From positions 1-64,000 of the IMG/VR virus record IMGVR_UViG_3300037847_004938: a DNA stretch of 64,000 bases; one strand, 5' to 3'. The notes below the pieces were generated by a model. That model had not been told where the DNA came from, ran no database searches, and saw only the letters and a list, made by a program, of their open reading frames with translations. The stretch comes from a virus. This document shows positions 50,284 through 60,618 of this stretch, one piece after another (within the stretch, counting starts at the first letter, position 1; every line of letters starts with the position of its first letter). The position numbers and the translations under genes are program-made.

Positions 50284-50991
50284 TTAGTTAAAATATGCAT
50301 AGCCCGCAACGTTTTTGCCAAATCTTATTGTTACATTGTTAGCGTCATCATATTCAATCTTCCCCATTATTTTATGTCCTTGGTCATCTACTATCGTTAC
50401 GCTCGGTTTTTTATTAAGCGCGTGTTCCATTGTCCAAGTAGCTGACGGTGTTGCTTGTTCAACCGCTTTATGCTTATCTAGGTCGTCAAACCTAAACAAC
50501 AACAAAGATAATAAATAATCTTCTTCATCTTGTAGGCTTCCATTTCCACCCTTGAACACAACTGCAATATCGTACAGGTCTGTATTGTTTGTATTTTGCG
50601 TAGAACTATTCCATTCAAATACACCAAACTGAGTTGGGTCATTAGCTTTTTGTAATAAAACTAAACTTTTTTCTATTGTTTCATAAAAGGAGTTTATGTC
50701 TACAGCTGCTGCTGATTTTTTATGTAGCTGAATAGTAGATATTGTAGAAAAAGCTACTGTTGCTCCTTGATCTACTGGCAGTTTTATAAACCCATACGTT
50801 TGTGTATTATTAGAAGGTCTAATAAATTTAAATCTAGAACCAGTAGTTTCTACAGATCCACTTTTGTTTAAGAAATCAGTTATATCTGATATTTTATAAT
50901 TTCTTGTATGGGTTCCTGCAGAATCAGTTCCGATAACCTTATCATTCTTCGTAACATTAGAGTCTAACGCATAAGTGCTAATTCTTGCCAT
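50284..50991 (-). CDS. Fibre-associated virion protein, 235 aa
   Basis: The N-terminal ISTYALDSNVTKNDKVIGTD matches the start of the 85-residue protein at 55584-55841 (ISTYNNDGTVEAADKLIGTD), so both probably share a virion-docking peptide. The C-terminal domain (PSVTIVDDQGHKIMGKIEY) looks like a small receptor or knob domain. It follows a TATCTTTG promoter element. Confidence 0.6.
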   Translation of the reverse strand: MARISTYALDSNVTKNDKVIGTDSAGTHTRNYKISDITDFLNKSGSVETTGSRFKFIRPSNNTQTYGFIKLPVDQGATVAFSTISTIQLHKKSAAAVDINSFYETIEKSLVLLQKANDPTQFGVFEWNSSTQNTNNTDLYDIAVVFKGGNGSLQDEEDYLLSLLLFRFDDLDKHKAVEQATPSATWTMEHALNKKPSVTIVDDQGHKIMGKIEYDDANNVTIRFGKNVAGYAYFN

Positions 50992-51035: not shown

Positions 51036-51170
51036 TTATCTGCCTTGTCCTCTATATCTCTTCTGGTAGTTTCTGCTACTCACGCATTTTGAAGATTTTG
51101 TTTTTGCGTGGACTCCAGGTCTTTTCTTTCTTTTGGCTTTTACGTATGGCTTATATATTATTCTAGCCAT
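51036..51170 (-). CDS. Small basic protein, 44 aa
   Basis: Product MARIIYKPYVKAKRKKRPG, then VHAKTKSSK and a C-terminal NYQKRYRGQGR. The ATG overlaps the end of the thioredoxin-like gene by 8 bases. The RPGVHAKT...RGQGR pattern looks like small basic proteins of other phages, as far as I recall. Possibly DNA-binding or packaged in the virion; function unknown. Confidence 0.6.
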   Translation of the reverse strand: MARIIYKPYVKAKRKKRPGVHAKTKSSKCVSSRNYQKRYRGQGR

Positions 51171-51483
51171 CCTTTTTTAATTCATAAACAAGGTCTTGAA
51201 TAAATTTACTATTTACATCAAGTTTAAAATCTAATCCTGCTTGAAAAGTTCTAACTATTTTACCGTTTTTTTCTATGAGTATTACAGGAACAGATTTTAT
51301 TTGACTCTTTAATTTTGGACCTTGGTCTTCAAGCCAAGCGTAATCATATTTGCATCCTCTTAGATTTTCAAGATATAATGTATTTTGCTGATTCCACTTA
51401 GCGTTTATTTGCACTACTCTTATTTGTTGGCTATAACTACTATAGCTGAAAAATAAGAATAAAATTAAAATTAATTTTTTCAT
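51163..51483 (-). CDS. Secreted thioredoxin-like protein without CxxC, copy 2
   Basis: 106 residues with a clear signal peptide (MKKLILILFLFFSYSSYSQQ). A thioredoxin-like order follows: VVQINAKWNQQN in place of the usual A-WCxxC, then a helix, and VPVILIEKNGKIVRTF with the cis-Pro strand. With no catalytic cysteine pair, it cannot be a normal oxidoreductase. It is translationally coupled (4-base overlap) to the TM-coiled-coil gene upstream, and the same pair occurs at 54213-54859. A periplasmic lysis role is plausible. Confidence 0.65.
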   Translation of the reverse strand: MKKLILILFLFFSYSSYSQQIRVVQINAKWNQQNTLYLENLRGCKYDYAWLEDQGPKLKSQIKSVPVILIEKNGKIVRTFQAGLDFKLDVNSKFIQDLVYELKKDG

Positions 51484-51788
51484 CTTTTATAAACTTTGTC
51501 TTCTAATTCTTTTATTGATTCTTTATTTTCTAGTATATCTTCTTTTAATACTTCTGTTGATTTTTCTATTTGTATAATAGTACTCCTAACAAGTTCATCT
51601 TTTAATTGAAACTCCATTTTTTGAACAAACTCTTCACTACTAAAGTTATCAATCTTACTATTCATTTCTTGTATTTCTCCTTGTAGAGTAAACCACATAC
51701 TAGCCAGTGCTATTACACCACCCACCAACATTCCTATTGTTTTTAAATCTAGTTTTACCTCTGTGTCTTCACTAATTTTTTTTGCCAT
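51480..51788 (-). CDS. TM plus coiled-coil protein, spanin-like, copy 2
   Basis: 102 residues: a cytoplasmic N-terminus (KISEDTEVKLDLKT), one membrane span (IGMLVGGVIALASMWFTL), and a periplasmic coiled coil to the end. This is the architecture of an inner-membrane spanin. It follows the holin gene and overlaps the thioredoxin-like gene by four bases. A paralogue lies at 54554-54859 (KISENTNVQLDLKTIGMLIA). Confidence 0.6.
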   Translation of the reverse strand: MAKKISEDTEVKLDLKTIGMLVGGVIALASMWFTLQGEIQEMNSKIDNFSSEEFVQKMEFQLKDELVRSTIIQIEKSTEVLKEDILENKESIKELEDKVYKR

Positions 51789-51811
51789 CGTTTTTTATTT
51801 TATGTTCACAA

Positions 51812-52273
51812 TCATTGTTTTTTAAAAATGCTCGTTGCTTTTTCTGTCGTCCTTCCTCCGAAATAAGCTAGAACAACAGCCATCATCACCTTCTCAAAAG
51901 TGTCATTCCAAGTAACACCTATGTTAAAAGGAATTGATTCTACGCTGTCTAATATGCCTGCTAATGAAAAAATAGTTATACACCAAACTAAAACCAGCGG
52001 ACGCACATTCTTCGAAAGCCATGAATCGCTAGCAGCGTCTGCTTGCCATCTGTTAGTTATAGATTCAATCTCTTTATTCTGTTGTTCGTAAATTAATTGT
52101 TGAAGTTTAATTTTATCTTCATTACTTACATCAGATTTACCTATTGCTGCAATTGCTTCTTTAGGACTTGTAACACCTTGTAACACACTACCAAGAGTTG
52201 GGTTTATCATACCAGCAGCTCCTAATAATAGTTTACCTACAGTTGTGTTTTTAAATTTCTTCTTGTCGCTCAT
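51812..52273 (-). CDS. Holin, 3TM-type
   Basis: 153 residues. The segment RWQADAASDSWLSKNVRPLV is the signature before the membrane part of the phage 3TM holin family, followed by VLVWCITIFSLAGIL and VMMAVVLAYFGGRTTEKA. An N-terminal hydrophobic segment (KLLLGAAGMINPTLGSVL) could be the third span. It overlaps the endolysin gene by four bases. It makes holes in the inner membrane to time lysis. Confidence 0.8.
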   Translation of the reverse strand: MSDKKKFKNTTVGKLLLGAAGMINPTLGSVLQGVTSPKEAIAAIGKSDVSNEDKIKLQQLIYEQQNKEIESITNRWQADAASDSWLSKNVRPLVLVWCITIFSLAGILDSVESIPFNIGVTWNDTFEKVMMAVVLAYFGGRTTEKATSIFKKQ

Positions 52274-52740
52274 ATTACCATGTATTTAGTTTTTCCATCT
52301 TCTTTATATGCCTTCAAACATCTATTTCTGTTTTTTTGTGCATCTACATATGAAACGTGAACCCAAGCTGGGTTTTGATCCGTTCCAAATTCCCAAATCA
52401 TTTGATCATAATCAAGATTTGCTTTTATCCAATCAAACATTGCCGCATTAGAAGCGTGACCATAAACATCATCTATATCTATCGCTTGACCTTTACAATG
52501 CTGAGATTTTGTAGAACCTCCTATAGCTTTGTTAAGTTCTGGCGATCTATAAAAAGAATTAATCTTTATAGGTCCGCCCACCCAATCCCTCAAAGGTTGA
52601 AAAATCATTTCTGCTACAGTCATCATGTTTCCAAGATGTTCATCCGTAGGGGTGTTGTCTATCCCTCTCCTCTTTGCTGTTTCAGAGTGGATAGCTTCAT
52701 TATACGATACATTTTTTGATAACTTATCCATTATCAACAT
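52270..52740 (-). CDS. Endolysin, peptidase M15-type
   Basis: 156 residues; an in-frame ATG nine bases later (MDKLSKNVSY) may be the true start. The zinc-site pattern of M15 D,D-/L,D-peptidases is visible: KINSFYRSPELN, STKSQHCKGQAIDIDD (HxxxxxxD) and NPAWVHVSY (the final H). It would cleave peptidoglycan cross-links. It lies directly upstream of the holin. No signal peptide, so it relies on the holin. Confidence 0.88.
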   Translation of the reverse strand: MLIMDKLSKNVSYNEAIHSETAKRRGIDNTPTDEHLGNMMTVAEMIFQPLRDWVGGPIKINSFYRSPELNKAIGGSTKSQHCKGQAIDIDDVYGHASNAAMFDWIKANLDYDQMIWEFGTDQNPAWVHVSYVDAQKNRNRCLKAYKEDGKTKYMVI

Positions 52741-52779
52741 CCATTACAAAATGGGCAATTAAAATCACATTCCATATTT

Positions 52780-52920
52780 TTATTTTTTAAGTGCTCGTTT
52801 TACTGCTTTAGCTTTCGCTTTTATCTTATTAGCTTTAGCTATTATTATATCATCCACGGTAGTTTTACTCCATAATAAAACCCACATGTCTTTCCAATAT
52901 TCTTTAGTTAATTTCCACAT
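52780..52920 (-). CDS. Small basic protein, 46 aa
   Basis: Product MWKLTKEYWKDMWVLLWSKT, then an Ala/Lys-rich helix to the C-terminus. It starts two bases downstream of the outer-membrane protein stop. The Trp-rich amphipathic half could lie on the membrane. Location in the lysis block suggests an accessory role. No family recognised. Confidence 0.5.
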   Translation of the reverse strand: MWKLTKEYWKDMWVLLWSKTTVDDIIIAKANKIKAKAKAVKRALKK

Positions 52921-52921
52921 A

Positions 52922-54211
52922 CTATCTTAATGTTATATTTAATCCAAAATTAGTTTGAAATAGTTCTGACTCCCAGAACTTTGTATATTCTCCCTCTACA
53001 AATATACCAAAGCTTTTGCTTACTTTCCAGCCGAACATTAATCCAGCTTGATAGTCTGACCACTGCTCTGGCGTTGAATCTTTTCTTAAACCTCCTTTAC
53101 CCCAATTATTTCTATTAAGATAATTAAAATCATCATCTCCTTTTAAATACTTGTGGTAAGGTAAAATCCAATTTCCATAAGCATGAAGCCAAAAATTTCT
53201 TTTATAATGATAAAAATCAAAACCTGCTATAGGTGCAATCTCTGCGTACGGATCAAGAGTGTCAAATATTTCTTGATTGTATCTATTCATCAAATCTCCA
53301 AACACTTCATCTCGAAATTGTAAGTCTGAATAAGCTACAATATTACCCTGTTCATCTCTCCATATCCAATCATACATTGTGTTTCCTGTACTTATATCTG
53401 TATAAGAAGTAAAGTGATCACTATAACCGTATTCGTATCCAAGACTGTACCAAGGGTTTGCAGTATATTCATTACCAAAATCATCTACCGCTATTTCATT
53501 CAGCCATATTTCAATTGGGTTATATCCATAAGCTTTTTGATGTGTACGATATATAGCGCCTGCAGATATACTAAACTTCTTACCTATAGGTAATCTAGCT
53601 CTAACTTCTCCAGACAAGTATTCGAAACCCACATTTCCAGACTCTCTGTTCTCAAATTTTACAATATGGTACTTACCTGTGTGTCTTACAAAAACTCTTT
53701 TATTGTTAAACTCATCACCATCTCTTCTTTCCTTTTCCCAGTGTAATAAATATTCTAAACCTTTGACTGCTGCAGTAGGTGCAGATAAACCAACATTACT
53801 TTCAGTTCCGTTGTAAAAGTTGTTTTCTTTAATTTCATATCCAAACCTTGCTAACTTTCTAATTCCTATTCCATATCTGTAATCAAATGGATGATAAACT
53901 GTTTGGTCTATTACCTCTGGTATTGCATATAAATCATCTGGGTCAGTTCTTACAAAATACTCTGAATTTTCTATTTTTGCGTTTCCTACATTACCTGCTG
54001 CGTAAAATGTTCCATACTTAAGAAAATCATCGTATAGCTGATTAAAAAAGCTCTTTGCTTTATATTTTTTTACAATCTTGTTTTCTAATTTTTTATCTGT
54101 GTCAATAACTTGAGCTGTTAAAGTTGAGCCAAATATCATAATCATAAAAAACACTACTAAAAATAATAATGCTTTTGAAGTAAACTTTTCTGTGGTTTCT
54201 TTTCTATTCAT
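52922..54211 (-). CDS. Phage-encoded outer-membrane beta-barrel-like protein, 429 aa
   Basis: A signal peptide (about residues 13-33, ALLFLVVFFMIMIFGSTLTAQ) precedes a body of alternating polar and aromatic strands rich in Tyr, Trp, Phe and Gly (SGEVRARLPIGKKFSISAGA; GLMFGWKVSKSFGIFVEGEY), ending FQTNFGLNITLR. This is the make-up of an outer-membrane barrel. It sits in the lysis block behind a secreted thioredoxin-like gene. Possible jobs are outer-membrane disruption, receptor masking or superinfection exclusion. Confidence 0.7.
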   Translation of the reverse strand: MNRKETTEKFTSKALLFLVVFFMIMIFGSTLTAQVIDTDKKLENKIVKKYKAKSFFNQLYDDFLKYGTFYAAGNVGNAKIENSEYFVRTDPDDLYAIPEVIDQTVYHPFDYRYGIGIRKLARFGYEIKENNFYNGTESNVGLSAPTAAVKGLEYLLHWEKERRDGDEFNNKRVFVRHTGKYHIVKFENRESGNVGFEYLSGEVRARLPIGKKFSISAGAIYRTHQKAYGYNPIEIWLNEIAVDDFGNEYTANPWYSLGYEYGYSDHFTSYTDISTGNTMYDWIWRDEQGNIVAYSDLQFRDEVFGDLMNRYNQEIFDTLDPYAEIAPIAGFDFYHYKRNFWLHAYGNWILPYHKYLKGDDDFNYLNRNNWGKGGLRKDSTPEQWSDYQAGLMFGWKVSKSFGIFVEGEYTKFWESELFQTNFGLNITLR

Positions 54212-54212
54212 A

Positions 54213-54557
54213 TTAAAACTTGCTTTCTATTATTTCATCAATTTCTTTTTCTAGAAGATCTACTGTATCTTCTGGTAACTTAAGTGATATACCACTTTCT
54301 ATTCTAATAACCTCTTCTCCATCATTATATAATATAATTGTTGGGAGGTATTTAATTTTTTCTTTCTCAAACACTTCTTTTTTTTCTACTATAGAAAAAG
54401 TATAAATGTTATAATCATCAAATATTTTTAGAGATATTTCTGCCTCTTTAGTAAAAGGAGCGCTGAATTGAACTATTGATATTTCGTCTTTAAAACTCTG
54501 ACCAAAAGCATTAGAGGTTAGAATTAAAAAAACAATAATATTAATTAAGGATTTCAT
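54213..54557 (-). CDS. Secreted thioredoxin-like protein without CxxC, copy 1
   Basis: 114 residues with a signal peptide (SLINIIVFLILTSNAFGQ), a thioredoxin-like core (ISIVQFSAPFTKEAEISLKI) lacking the cysteine pair, and YLPTIILYNDGEEVIRIESG with the cis-Pro strand. Divergent paralogue of the protein at 51163-51483 in the same coupled arrangement. It lies one base upstream of the outer-membrane protein gene, which suggests joint periplasmic action. Confidence 0.6.
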   Translation of the reverse strand: MKSLINIIVFLILTSNAFGQSFKDEISIVQFSAPFTKEAEISLKIFDDYNIYTFSIVEKKEVFEKEKIKYLPTIILYNDGEEVIRIESGISLKLPEDTVDLLEKEIDEIIESKF

Positions 54558-54859
54558 CTCTGTTTGCTTATTTCATAGAGCCTTTCATCCATTTTTTTCA
54601 ATTGTTCTTTTATTTCACCAACATCCTCTTTTACAGAATTAACGTCTAATTCAATTTTTTCTACTGTACTTCTGACTAATTCGTCTTTATATTGAAACTC
54701 GATTGAGCTTACTTCAGGTTCTGGCAACTCCCTAGCTTCTTGAATTTGAGCTTGAAGGGTAAAGTATGTTCCTGCAAGCATTACCGCTCCAGCTATTAAC
54801 ATACCTATTGTTTTTAAATCTAATTGTACATTCGTGTTTTCACTAATTTTTGTCGCCAT
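54554..54859 (-). CDS. TM plus coiled-coil protein, spanin-like, copy 1
   Basis: 101 residues from the ATG at 54859; a frame extension of seven codons upstream is unlikely. It has KISENTNVQLDLKTIGMLIA, then one membrane span and a coiled coil. It is clearly related to the protein at 51480-51788, including the KDELVRST segment in the coiled coil. It overlaps the thioredoxin-like gene by four bases, exactly as in the other pair. Confidence 0.6.
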   Translation of the reverse strand: MATKISENTNVQLDLKTIGMLIAGAVMLAGTYFTLQAQIQEARELPEPEVSSIEFQYKDELVRSTVEKIELDVNSVKEDVGEIKEQLKKMDERLYEISKQR

Positions 54860-55293: not shown

Positions 55294-55584
55294 TTAATAT
55301 TTACCTTGCCTGCTCTTTGGCGAAGACTTTGTAGAGCCTCCTTTTCCTGCCCAAAGCTTTTTACAAGCCCAATATCTTGCACTCAATTTATTTGTAGCAG
55401 ATGAACATTTATGTCTTGCTTTGAATGATTTTCTTGCTTTGTCTGAATAGTTATGTCCATAACCTTTTGCTCCGAAATGAATTATCTTTTCTTTTCCGTT
55501 TGCACAAGCCTTAACCATCTTTTTTTTGCCCGCTCTATCACTAGGACGAACAACGTTACATTTCATTTTTGCCTTGTCTGCCAT
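55294..55584 (-). CDS. Small basic Cys-containing protein, 96 aa
   Basis: Features are MKCNVVRPSDRAGKKKMVKA, KIIHFGAKGYGHNYSDKARK, FKARHKCSSATNKLSARYW and a Gly/Ser/Lys tail (RQGKY). The HFGAKGY...ARHKC...SARYWACKK order resembles a conserved small protein of phages and giant viruses. Probably binds nucleic acid. Its start shares one base with the stop of the gene upstream. Confidence 0.65.
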   Translation of the reverse strand: MADKAKMKCNVVRPSDRAGKKKMVKACANGKEKIIHFGAKGYGHNYSDKARKSFKARHKCSSATNKLSARYWACKKLWAGKGGSTKSSPKSRQGKY

Positions 55585-55841
55585 TACGATACTCTTATTT
55601 TAACTACACTTCCTGTTCTGTATAAACCATTTACTGGTACATTTCCTGCTGCAGCAGCTGTATCATCAGCATAATCAGCTAATCCAGTTATAGATGGTGA
55701 AGCAAACATAAAAGACTCTAAAGCTGCAACGGTATAGTTTTTTGTTTTACCACCATCAGCACCAGATGATCCGTCTGTTCCAATTAACTTATCTGCTGCT
55801 TCTACAGTTCCGTCATTGTTATATGTACTAATTTTTGCCAT
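55584..55841 (-). CDS. Small virion-associated protein, 85 aa
   Basis: The N-terminal ISTYNNDGTVEAADKLIGTD is shared with the fibre-associated protein at 50284-50991. Ala/Asp-rich middle and a short beta C-terminus (GLYRTGSVVKIRVS). Probably a small capsid or tail decoration with the shared docking peptide. Confidence 0.55.
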   Translation of the reverse strand: MAKISTYNNDGTVEAADKLIGTDGSSGADGGKTKNYTVAALESFMFASPSITGLADYADDTAAAAGNVPVNGLYRTGSVVKIRVS

Positions 55842-57801: not shown

Positions 57802-58540
57802 CATCTTCATATTTTTTGACTGCTTTCTTTAAAATACTATAGTCTCTGATTGATGTTAATTTTTTAAGTTGTCTCATTCTGACTCTGTTTCCACCCTCCG
57901 TGAGTTCATCTATAGCTTCAATAGCTTTAGATATTAAATTTGTTTCTTTTATAATTACATTTAAATCCTGAATTTTTTGAATTACATTATCGTCAAAATA
58001 CCACTTAACCATATATCTTGATGTTTTTGCAACCTCTGCCACTTTACTTATAGTAATTTTTATATTATCCTGCCATAGTTCTTGCACTATGTTATCTAAG
58101 TATTGTTTTGCTGGTCTTTGTTTACTGCTTATAAGATTTCCTACTATTTTCATTTTCTCTTTTCTATCTATTCTTTTAGAAGGATTAAATATGATTTTTC
58201 TTTTTCTAGCGCAATAAGGAACTTTATTTTGCTCTGATACCACTAAAACCATGTTTTCAACTCTTACCTTGCCATAGGTTCTAATAATGTGGCCATTACT
58301 TCTGTCTGATAAATCTAAAAAAAGCTTTATCATTAATGGTATATCAAAGTCAGGGTTGAGGTATATAAACTTTTCAGCTATATATTGAAGCTCTTTAAAC
58401 GAATTTATCTTTCGTGTAGTTCTATATAGCCTGTAATAATTAACACCTTTTGGAAAAAACAAGTAATCTTTACCGTCAAAGCGGAAATAAGACTCCATGA
58501 TAATCCTGTGTTTGTTGTAATCAAATAACGGAATTAACAT
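57794..58540 (-). CDS. Unknown protein with HTH-like segment, 248 aa
   Basis: Begins MLIPLFDYNKHRIIMESYF; a second ATG at 58498 would avoid the 20-base overlap with groES. The middle part has ITISKVAEVAKTSRYMVKWY, resembling a helix-turn-helix. The C-terminus is helical and basic. Similar proteins accompany the MarR-like gene in some flavophages as far as I recall. Function unknown. Confidence 0.55.
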   Translation of the reverse strand: MLIPLFDYNKHRIIMESYFRFDGKDYLFFPKGVNYYRLYRTTRKINSFKELQYIAEKFIYLNPDFDIPLMIKLFLDLSDRSNGHIIRTYGKVRVENMVLVVSEQNKVPYCARKRKIIFNPSKRIDRKEKMKIVGNLISSKQRPAKQYLDNIVQELWQDNIKITISKVAEVAKTSRYMVKWYFDDNVIQKIQDLNVIIKETNLISKAIEAIDELTEGGNRVRMRQLKKLTSIRDYSILKKAVKKYEDAI

Positions 58541-58799
58541 CTTTCATGGTTACTACAACGTCTTGTTCTCGTATAGCTTTGTATTTCTCACCTTTTACTC
58601 TTAGGTCAGAACCAGCTACCTTATCAAAATAAACAAAACTACCTGGCTCTACTTCTTTTACTAAGTCGCCTACAGTTATTACTTCGCCAATTATATATCT
58701 AATGTTTAAATCTGATTGTTCTGTAATAATTAGTCCTAATTCATTTTTTTGAACTACCTCGTCATCTTTAATAATTATAAAGTTTCCTACTGCTTTCAT
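58521..58799 (-). CDS. groES: Co-chaperonin GroES, 92 aa
   Basis: Cpn10 features: NFIIIKDDEVVQKNELGLII with the mobile loop region, IIGEVITVGDLVKEVEPGS, VYFDKVAGSDLRVKGEKY and EQDVVVTM at the end. The length is normal for GroES. It forms the lid of the chaperonin and works with the phage GroEL encoded one gene upstream. Its start shares one base with the stop of the 70-residue gene. Confidence 0.85.
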   Translation of the reverse strand: MKAVGNFIIIKDDEVVQKNELGLIITEQSDLNIRYIIGEVITVGDLVKEVEPGSFVYFDKVAGSDLRVKGEKYKAIREQDVVVTMKDVNSVI

Positions 58800-59013: not shown

Positions 59014-60618
59014 TTATTTATTTATTTCTTCTTTTTTTATTCTTTTATTTGAAACAACGCAAGATGTTGTTAAAATAACACCTGCAACTGATGCTGCGTT
59101 TAAAACTGCGTTCTTTGTTACTTTGAATGGATCTATAATGCCTGCTTTATACATATCTGTAAATTTTTTGTTTTTTACATCATATCCATAATTTAACCTA
59201 CCTGCCATACAAACTTTATATGCAGGTTCTGGATTCTCTCCTGAATTTTCAACTATCTTCCTGAATACATCAGAAAGCGCATCAAATACAATATTATAGC
59301 CTACCTTGAAAGAATCGGAAGAGCTTCGAGGGGCTTTTTTGCGATTTTTTTTCTTAGTAGCATTTAACAGAGCTGCTCCTCCACCAGCAACTATACCCTC
59401 TTCTAAGGCTGCTTTTGTTGCATGGATGGAATCATCAACCCTATCTTTCTTTTCTTTAAGCTCTACATCTGAGTTACCTGCTAATTTTATAGTAGCTACA
59501 CCTCCAGCTAGTTTTGATAACCTATCTTTTAGGTGCCACTTATCAGATTTATTCTTTGTAAGCTTTATTTCATTGGTTAGCCATTCAATTGTTTCTAGCT
59601 TTTTTGGATTCTCTTCACCTTCAAACACTAAAATTGTCTCATTTATGTCTGAAATCATGGTTTTACACGTTCCAAGGTAGCTAGAATCTATATTTTGTGC
59701 TGAATCACCAGATAATTCTGAAATTATACGAGCTCCTGTCATCAAACACAGGTCTTCGAGTAATTCAAACCTCTTAATTCCTATTCCTTCTGGTGTGATA
59801 AAGTTTGCAGTTAAGTTTTTCTTGTTAATATTCTGTGTAATAAACAATTTTACCCTATCATCAAGCTCAGATATGATTAAAAGTGGTCTTTTTTGCTTAA
59901 TTGATGCTTCAAAAGCAAAATGTAGTCTTTCGTGCATGTCAATTTTAGTATCACTTATTACAATTAGTGGATTTTGAAACTCAACTGTACGTTTTCTTAG
60001 ATTATTGACAGAAAAAGGAGTGCCGTAGCCTTTTTTGATACGTGTACCATTAGTAATTTCAGTATAATCTTCGTTTGTGGAGGACTCGTCCATAGTAACT
60101 ACCCCATCTTTACCTACTTTATTGTAAGCATCTGCAATCATATTACCTAAATACGTGTCTCCATTTGCTGAAATCGTCGCTACTTCTACCAGACTAGCTT
60201 CGGTGACGTCTTTTTTGTTTTTTTCCAAAATTGACACCACATCTTTTGCAGCTTGTTCTATACCTTCTTTAGCTTGAGTCACATTATCTATCATTTCCAC
60301 TTCTTCAAAACACCTATCTATGATCGCTTTTGCTAAAACACACGACGTAGTTGTACCGTCACCAGCTTCTGTCGCCGTTTTTTGGGAGGCTTGACGTAAA
60401 ATACTAACACCTAAGTTTTCTACAGGGTCTGATAATACTATACTGTTTGCAACAGTTACTCCGTCTTTAGTTACGTGGGGGGTTCCAAATTGGTCTTCGA
60501 TAATTACTGTTCTACCAGATGCTCCAAGAGTGGAGGCTACAGCTTCAGATAATATATCTATACCCTTTTTAAGGTTATAACGGCCTTCAGAACCAAAGGA
60601 TATGTTCTTTTCTATCAT
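59014..60618 (-). CDS. groEL: Chaperonin GroEL, 534 aa
   Basis: ATP-site motifs are present: TLGASGRTVII, KDGVTVA, TEAGDGTTTS at 83-92, and GIVAGGGAAL near residue 412. The apical domain is more divergent than in hosts. The C-terminus ends KKEEINK and lacks the Gly-Gly-Met tail of cellular GroEL. It folds phage proteins, most likely the capsid. A second MATG-like start is not seen; MIEKNISFGSEGR is taken. Confidence 0.93.
   Translation of the reverse strand: MIEKNISFGSEGRYNLKKGIDILSEAVASTLGASGRTVIIEDQFGTPHVTKDGVTVANSIVLSDPVENLGVSILRQASQKTATEAGDGTTTSCVLAKAIIDRCFEEVEMIDNVTQAKEGIEQAAKDVVSILEKNKKDVTEASLVEVATISANGDTYLGNMIADAYNKVGKDGVVTMDESSTNEDYTEITNGTRIKKGYGTPFSVNNLRKRTVEFQNPLIVISDTKIDMHERLHFAFEASIKQKRPLLIISELDDRVKLFITQNINKKNLTANFITPEGIGIKRFELLEDLCLMTGARIISELSGDSAQNIDSSYLGTCKTMISDINETILVFEGEENPKKLETIEWLTNEIKLTKNKSDKWHLKDRLSKLAGGVATIKLAGNSDVELKEKKDRVDDSIHATKAALEEGIVAGGGAALLNATKKKNRKKAPRSSSDSFKVGYNIVFDALSDVFRKIVENSGENPEPAYKVCMAGRLNYGYDVKNKKFTDMYKAGIIDPFKVTKNAVLNAASVAGVILTTSCVVSNKRIKKEEINK

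Follow-up and report, generated by a model that had tools for sequence, protein, structure and literature searches.

The window analyzed here is a stretch of 64,000 bp, comprising positions 1 to 64,000 of the 66,626-bp IMG/VR virus record IMGVR_UViG_3300037847_004938. It contains a group of minus-strand genes in which two gene pairs, each encoding a predicted membrane protein (A) and a predicted secreted protein (B), lie on either side of lysis genes, as follows:

54554-54859, minus strand: A2, single-transmembrane (TM) protein (TM at about residues 17-35) with a charged, helix-favoring tail, the OMP-linked paralog (from the sequence)
54213-54557, minus strand: B2, predicted secreted thioredoxin-like protein without CxxC, overlapping A2 by 4 nt (Pfam Thioredoxin, 20.8 bits, below the cutoff of 23.5)
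52922-54211, minus strand: OMP, 429 aa, N-terminal signal segment, predicted outer-membrane beta-barrel (AF2, Foldseek, VIA-align; 38-row family)
52780-52920, minus strand: sb, 46-aa Trp/Lys-rich small gene preceding the endolysin gene (conserved in 56 relatives)
52270-52740, minus strand: LYS, Peptidase_M15_3 endolysin (PF08291, 59.5 bits; phrog_894 endolysin, E = 1.2e-29)
51812-52273, minus strand: HOL, predicted holin, GTA_holin_3TM-like (phrog_3427 holin, E = 2.6e-17; PF11351, 22.3 bits, just under the cutoff of 24.8)
51480-51788, minus strand: A1, second A paralog, downstream of HOL (sequence comparison with A2)
51163-51483, minus strand: B1, second thioredoxin-like B, with WNQQN replacing WCGPC and the cis-Pro motif SVP kept, overlapping A1 by 4 nt (AF2, VIA-align)

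This layout agrees with an earlier note on the same DNA, which had placed genes for an outer-membrane barrel, a small basic protein, an endolysin and a holin between two minus-strand A-B pairs; Pfam and PHROG matches bear out the description, and both A/B junctions are ATGA overlaps of 4 nt. The same −4 overlap is exact in about half of ~300 A-B pairs in other contigs and is, therefore, not a chance feature of the window. In LYS, the motif residues S-x-H...D and W-x-H are invariant in the family alignment. The earlier note called the arrangement a duplicated cassette. The two copies stand, while a recent tandem duplication is ruled out by divergence and by the trees: A1 and A2 are 50% identical (E = 6e-31), B1 and B2 are 27% identical (E = 1e-6), and B2 falls in a seven-row clade (SH-aLRT 100) of pairs preceding an OMP while B1 lies elsewhere in the tree. 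Based on these positions in the tree, the copies are old paralogs, of which the A2-B2 cassette is tied to OMP and the A1-B1 cassette stands alone. With its start 1 nt past the end of B2, OMP is part of the B2 cassette and does not merely lie between the two copies.

Outside the cassettes, the genes at 50284-50991 and 55584-55841 (minus strand) share a fiber-like N-terminus (MARISTY/MAKISTY...DK(V/L)IGTD) and make up another duplicated element on either side of the region. Genes for GroES (Cpn10, 36 bits; 58521-58799) and GroEL (Cpn60, 228 bits; 59014-60618) lie near each other on the minus strand of the window.

The A gene is present in at least 500 virus contigs. To avoid the bias of loci retrieved through A or B, we seeded loci with endolysin and holin genes. 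Among endolysin-seeded loci with at least 3 kb of upstream flank, 39 of 60 had A-B on the same strand no more than 3 kb away; for a distance of up to 6.5 kb, the count was 36 of the 45 loci with sufficient flank. The pair also recurs beside holins elsewhere, with A-B on the same strand and no more than 3 kb away in 36 of 58 holin-seeded loci. The absence of pairs near lysis genes in other phages, which the earlier note had named as grounds against its reading, was not what we observed; A-B lies near endolysin or holin genes in many of them. Of 50 large virus records, 46 contained A, and the same 46 contained B; A-B was on the LYS strand in all 36 records with both LYS and A-B. The gap between LYS and A-B was <1 kb in 20 and <3 kb in 24 of these 36 records, compared to means of 1.8 and 4.2 (maxima 10 and 13) in 10,000 random placements; these figures show association rather than probability because the placement test treats related records as independent and many records were drawn in by lysis or A-B queries. 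Counting against linkage, the gap was 16-42 kb in 4 of the 36 records.

The persistence of the module across replaced lysis genes is stronger evidence than these counts. In a 164-kb phage (L111), the OMP gene (O), A and B (O-A-B) are directly followed by genes for an endolysin with PG_binding_1 and Amidase_2 domains and a Phage_holin_4_1 holin; elsewhere, the module precedes a single-domain Amidase_2 (L024) or a DUF5675 protein (L139). Gene order varies (O-A-B-LYS, A-B-O-LYS, LYS-O-A-B and LYS-A-B-HOL), and the linkage persists. That A-B is linked to lysis genes, including non-homologous endolysins and holins, is well supported.

Members of the A family have one TM segment near residue 17, followed by a charged, E/K/I/L-rich and Pro/Gly-poor tail. 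Of 227 unique A sequences, 178 have an excess of K/R on the N-side of the TM segment and 8 have fewer there. Based on the positive-inside rule, these data support that A is a predicted type II inner-membrane protein with its N-terminus inside, i.e., with an i-spanin-like topology. The tail shows weak heptad periodicity (mean z 0.96); many i-spanins are without a predicted coiled coil (Kongari et al. 2018, PMC6139136). Cys is nearly absent from A (3 of 227 sequences), and the intermolecular disulfides reported for two-component spanins are, therefore, impossible in most A proteins. Some A members have weak PHROG matches to holin or holin/antiholin families, which would fit a generic TM/helix similarity. 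Short A paralogs in tandem with A-B (L042:5698-5997, L056:1895-2182 and L071:5698-5997) have an N-terminal DIDxDGKPD calcium-binding-like motif; such a motif is odd in a cytoplasmic segment, and the N-in topology, therefore, calls for caution. We also noted A-B-A loci (L004:6297-6614 and relatives) in which the place after the second A, where B is expected, is taken by a 105-aa protein with a heavy-metal-associated (HMA) domain. In Pelagibacter phage HTVC023P, a 119-aa ORF with a TM segment, a helical part and a His-rich linker lies directly before an M15 peptidase gene (L351:3636-3995) and is possibly a distant analog of A.

For B1, the AF2 model (pLDDT 86.5) has a thioredoxin fold and matches thioredoxins with a Z of about 10 and an rmsd of 2.1 in VIA-align. 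Relatives of B score above the Pfam Thioredoxin (PF00085) cutoff that B2 misses. By model and profile, B is accordingly predicted to be a thioredoxin-fold protein of the thioredoxin superfamily. As the earlier note had pointed out, both B proteins are without CxxC; among 219 distinct B relatives, none has CxxC at the active site either, and NxxN takes its place in 191 of them. A redox enzyme is ruled out on this count, and no oxidoreductase chemistry is expected for B from its sequences. Similarly, an outer-membrane lipoprotein is ruled out, as a lipobox was found in 0 of the 219 sequences; the signal of B is of the signal peptidase I type. The A-B pair alone, therefore, cannot bridge to the outer membrane as Rz/Rz1 does. 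Nearly all B signal peptides in this set end in a Bacteroidetes-like -Q.

The AF2 model of OMP (pLDDT 77) is an all-beta barrel, and its structural matches in Foldseek and VIA-align are outer-membrane barrels only (NanC, OmpG and CymA), the best being CymA/OmpG-like with a Z of 11.5 and a high rmsd of 5.8. OMP matched no Pfam family and nothing in a PDB sequence search. Based on the model, OMP is probably an outer-membrane beta-barrel. Its relatives are 31-71% identical to the copy in the window. In 31 of 31 records with an intact OMP (~430 aa), it lies no more than 2.5 kb from A-B and on its strand, and OMP adjoins A in 136 cases; in the sole record with an OMP match and no A-B, the OMP is a fragment at the contig edge. 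The lysis-linked unit is larger than the A-B pair and usually includes OMP. Against a fixed module, 15 of the 46 records with A-B had no OMP, although part of these 15 records may be fragments, and the A and B trees agree only modestly (Mantel r 0.30, 0/999).

A lipobox pattern search of the 64-kb window, with 2.6 kb of the record lying outside it, gave no plausible lipoprotein ORF. One of the two pattern matches was a fragment within GroEL; the other, an ORF of 38 aa, runs antisense to a long ORF. By the pattern used, the 64 kb searched, therefore, hold no canonical o-spanin or u-spanin. In other contigs, genes of two families that are largely lipoproteins, LP (58) and/or YF (26), were present in 81 of 199 loci with A, B and LYS, which rules out strictly lipoprotein-free lysis cassettes throughout the family; neither was present in the other 118, including the main A-B-LYS-HOL group. 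Some YF members are without the lipobox Cys. LP proteins (e.g., L293:1605-2039 and L057:7099-7488), whose genes usually adjoin LYS, have a lipobox, a Pro/Tyr/Asn-rich tail and the motif THVLAVTxxGDT; like Rz1, they are Pro-containing, low-complexity lipoproteins, and from their sequences LP is an o-spanin candidate. One LP member weakly matches the PHROG Cor superinfection exclusion family.

Among its 56 relatives, sb (52780-52920, minus strand; MWKLTKEYWKDMWVLLWSKTTVDD...) is most often found directly before the endolysin gene, and it is possibly a disruptin-like or accessory lysis peptide. In one contig (L338:4270-8100), a homologous M15 endolysin gene has no A-B; the genes flanking it encode two lipoproteins, two secreted proteins (one of 239 aa, the other of 470 aa, rich in Asp/Glu and with a C-terminus resembling a barrel) and a TM protein that contains a Pro-rich stretch. 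These neighbors are possibly an analogous replacement module; a CsgG-like reading of one of the genes had no Pfam support.

The module resembles known lysis systems in part. As in two-component spanins (lambda Rz/Rz1), an overlapping gene pair lies beside endolysin and holin genes, A has a predicted type II inner-membrane topology with a charged helical periplasmic tail, and B is predicted to be exported. Unlike in Rz/Rz1, B is a predicted folded periplasmic protein with a signal peptidase I-type signal and no lipobox, the outer-membrane part is probably a beta-barrel, A is nearly devoid of Cys and there is no significant sequence similarity. Unimolecular spanins (T1 gp11 and a u-spanin-like ORF of Bacteroides phage BS-TP3) occupy the same slot beside an M15 endolysin, but they are single lipoproteins with a C-terminal TM segment, and the window has no such ORF. 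In BS-TP3, this ORF (L349:4382-4915) adjoins the gene for an M15 endolysin homologous to LYS. U-spanins are the only spanin type reported for Bacteroidetes phages in a 2025 survey (PMC12596118). B shares the fold and the cis-Pro motif of the thioredoxin superfamily and differs from redox thioredoxins in its NxxN. Disruptins (phiKT) are described in PMC12819732; A-B-OMP is proposed to share with them the disruption of the outer membrane without a lipoprotein, and sb is a putative analog, Trp/Lys-rich and beside LYS, while A-B-OMP, unlike disruptins, is a multi-protein set.

The earlier note suggested that the pair may form a spanin-like system. Its linkage to lysis genes, the type II topology predicted for A, the predicted secretion of B and the lack of an o- or u-spanin in the window agree with this suggestion, whereas the idea that the pair by itself forms the bridge does not hold; the adjacent barrel is the likelier outer-membrane part. 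Our preferred reading, to which we give an even chance, is that A-B, usually together with OMP, is a lysis module that acts after the endolysin, disrupting the outer membrane of the host, and so fills the role of a spanin without a lipoprotein. We observed the lysis linkage, the conservation, the predicted folds and signals and the lack of a plausible lipoprotein in the window; contacts between the proteins, a bridge and membrane disruption are inferred. A would sit in the inner membrane, N-terminus inside, with its helical tail in the periplasm; B would be exported and, as a thioredoxin fold minus the redox cysteines, would serve as a protein-binding adaptor; and the OMP barrel would be the outer-membrane anchor. 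The endolysin would cut the peptidoglycan first, and once the mesh is gone, A-B-OMP complexes could gather in clusters, and the two membranes could be pulled together or fused by them. Where a phage has no barrel of its own, B would need to bind an outer-membrane protein of the host or another one of the phage. More tentatively, A-B-OMP could represent a new class of outer-membrane disruptor beside spanins and disruptins, i.e., a lipoprotein-free tripartite trans-envelope machine of inner-membrane helix, pseudo-thioredoxin adaptor and outer-membrane barrel that is widespread in uncultivated marine phages and works with several unrelated endolysins and holins; we regard this broader claim as possible but doubtful.

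For phages carrying LP or YF, the main rival is that A and LP are the i- and o-spanin. Generalized to the family, A would be an i-spanin paired in many phages with a separate lipoprotein o-spanin (LP or YF), B would play an accessory part as chaperone or adaptor, and OMP would have a different function; the phage of the window would have lost or relocated its lipoprotein. The i-spanin-like topology of A and the LP or YF genes in 81 loci, usually beside LYS, speak for this explanation. We nevertheless consider it unlikely, as the majority of loci have neither family, no ORF in the window is a plausible lipoprotein, some YF proteins have no lipobox Cys, and B, unlike the lipoproteins, accompanies A in every one of the 46 A-bearing records among the 50 large ones.

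It is quite improbable, in our view, that A-B instead regulates the holin or endolysin, acting like an antiholin in the manner of the periplasmic T4 RI; in that case, B would be a sensor in the periplasm, and OMP would sense or block superinfection. The position beside holin and endolysin genes, the layout of a single-TM protein plus a secreted protein, and the PHROG holin or holin/antiholin matches of some A members are in agreement with regulation, but these matches are weak, the constant barrel neighbor would be left unexplained, and the occurrence of the module with unrelated holins and endolysins is unlikely for a specific inhibitor. The module could likewise be an envelope-modifying or superinfection-exclusion moron, in which OMP blocks a receptor and A-B assembles OMP, its place near lysis genes merely reflecting the clustering of late genes; phage outer-membrane proteins of this type are known (lambda Lom and Bor), and the distance between A-B and LYS, sometimes several kb or more, would fit. 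Nevertheless, the linkage survives endolysin replacement and gene-order rearrangement, and OMP is strongly conserved, which is unexpected for an exclusion gene under receptor-driven change, and we find this explanation similarly improbable.

Bacteroidetes is a plausible host, on indirect evidence. Relatives are found in MAG contigs labeled Bacteroidetes/Flavobacteriaceae and also in contigs, possibly misbinned, labeled Woesearchaeota, Alphaproteobacteria and Maricaulis; the Bacteroidetes promoter consensus had 5 matches versus 5.5 expected. In tblastn searches of the INPHARED cultured phages, A1, B1, a divergent A and OMP had no match, and a divergent B matched only phage thioredoxins, weakly. 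The A and B profiles, in searches without a positive control, had no match in six cultured phages that have a homologous M15 endolysin. NCBIfam gave no useful matches, and we found no earlier description of an A-B-OMP module in the open-access literature.

In the survey by Kongari et al. (2018, PMC6139136), about 13% of Gram-negative phages have no recognizable spanin; these authors asked for alternative routes in spanin-less phages and pointed out that the role of o-spanin could fall to an outer-membrane protein, which their criteria would overlook. A-B-OMP is a concrete, conserved and lipoprotein-free candidate for opening the outer membrane in such phages, and it could explain some marine phage annotations with a holin and an endolysin but no spanin. 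If the preferred reading is true, it adds a non-redox use of the thioredoxin fold, and many uncultivated marine phages, probably of Bacteroidetes, may break the host outer membrane by means of A and B, often together with the barrel, without a spanin lipoprotein.
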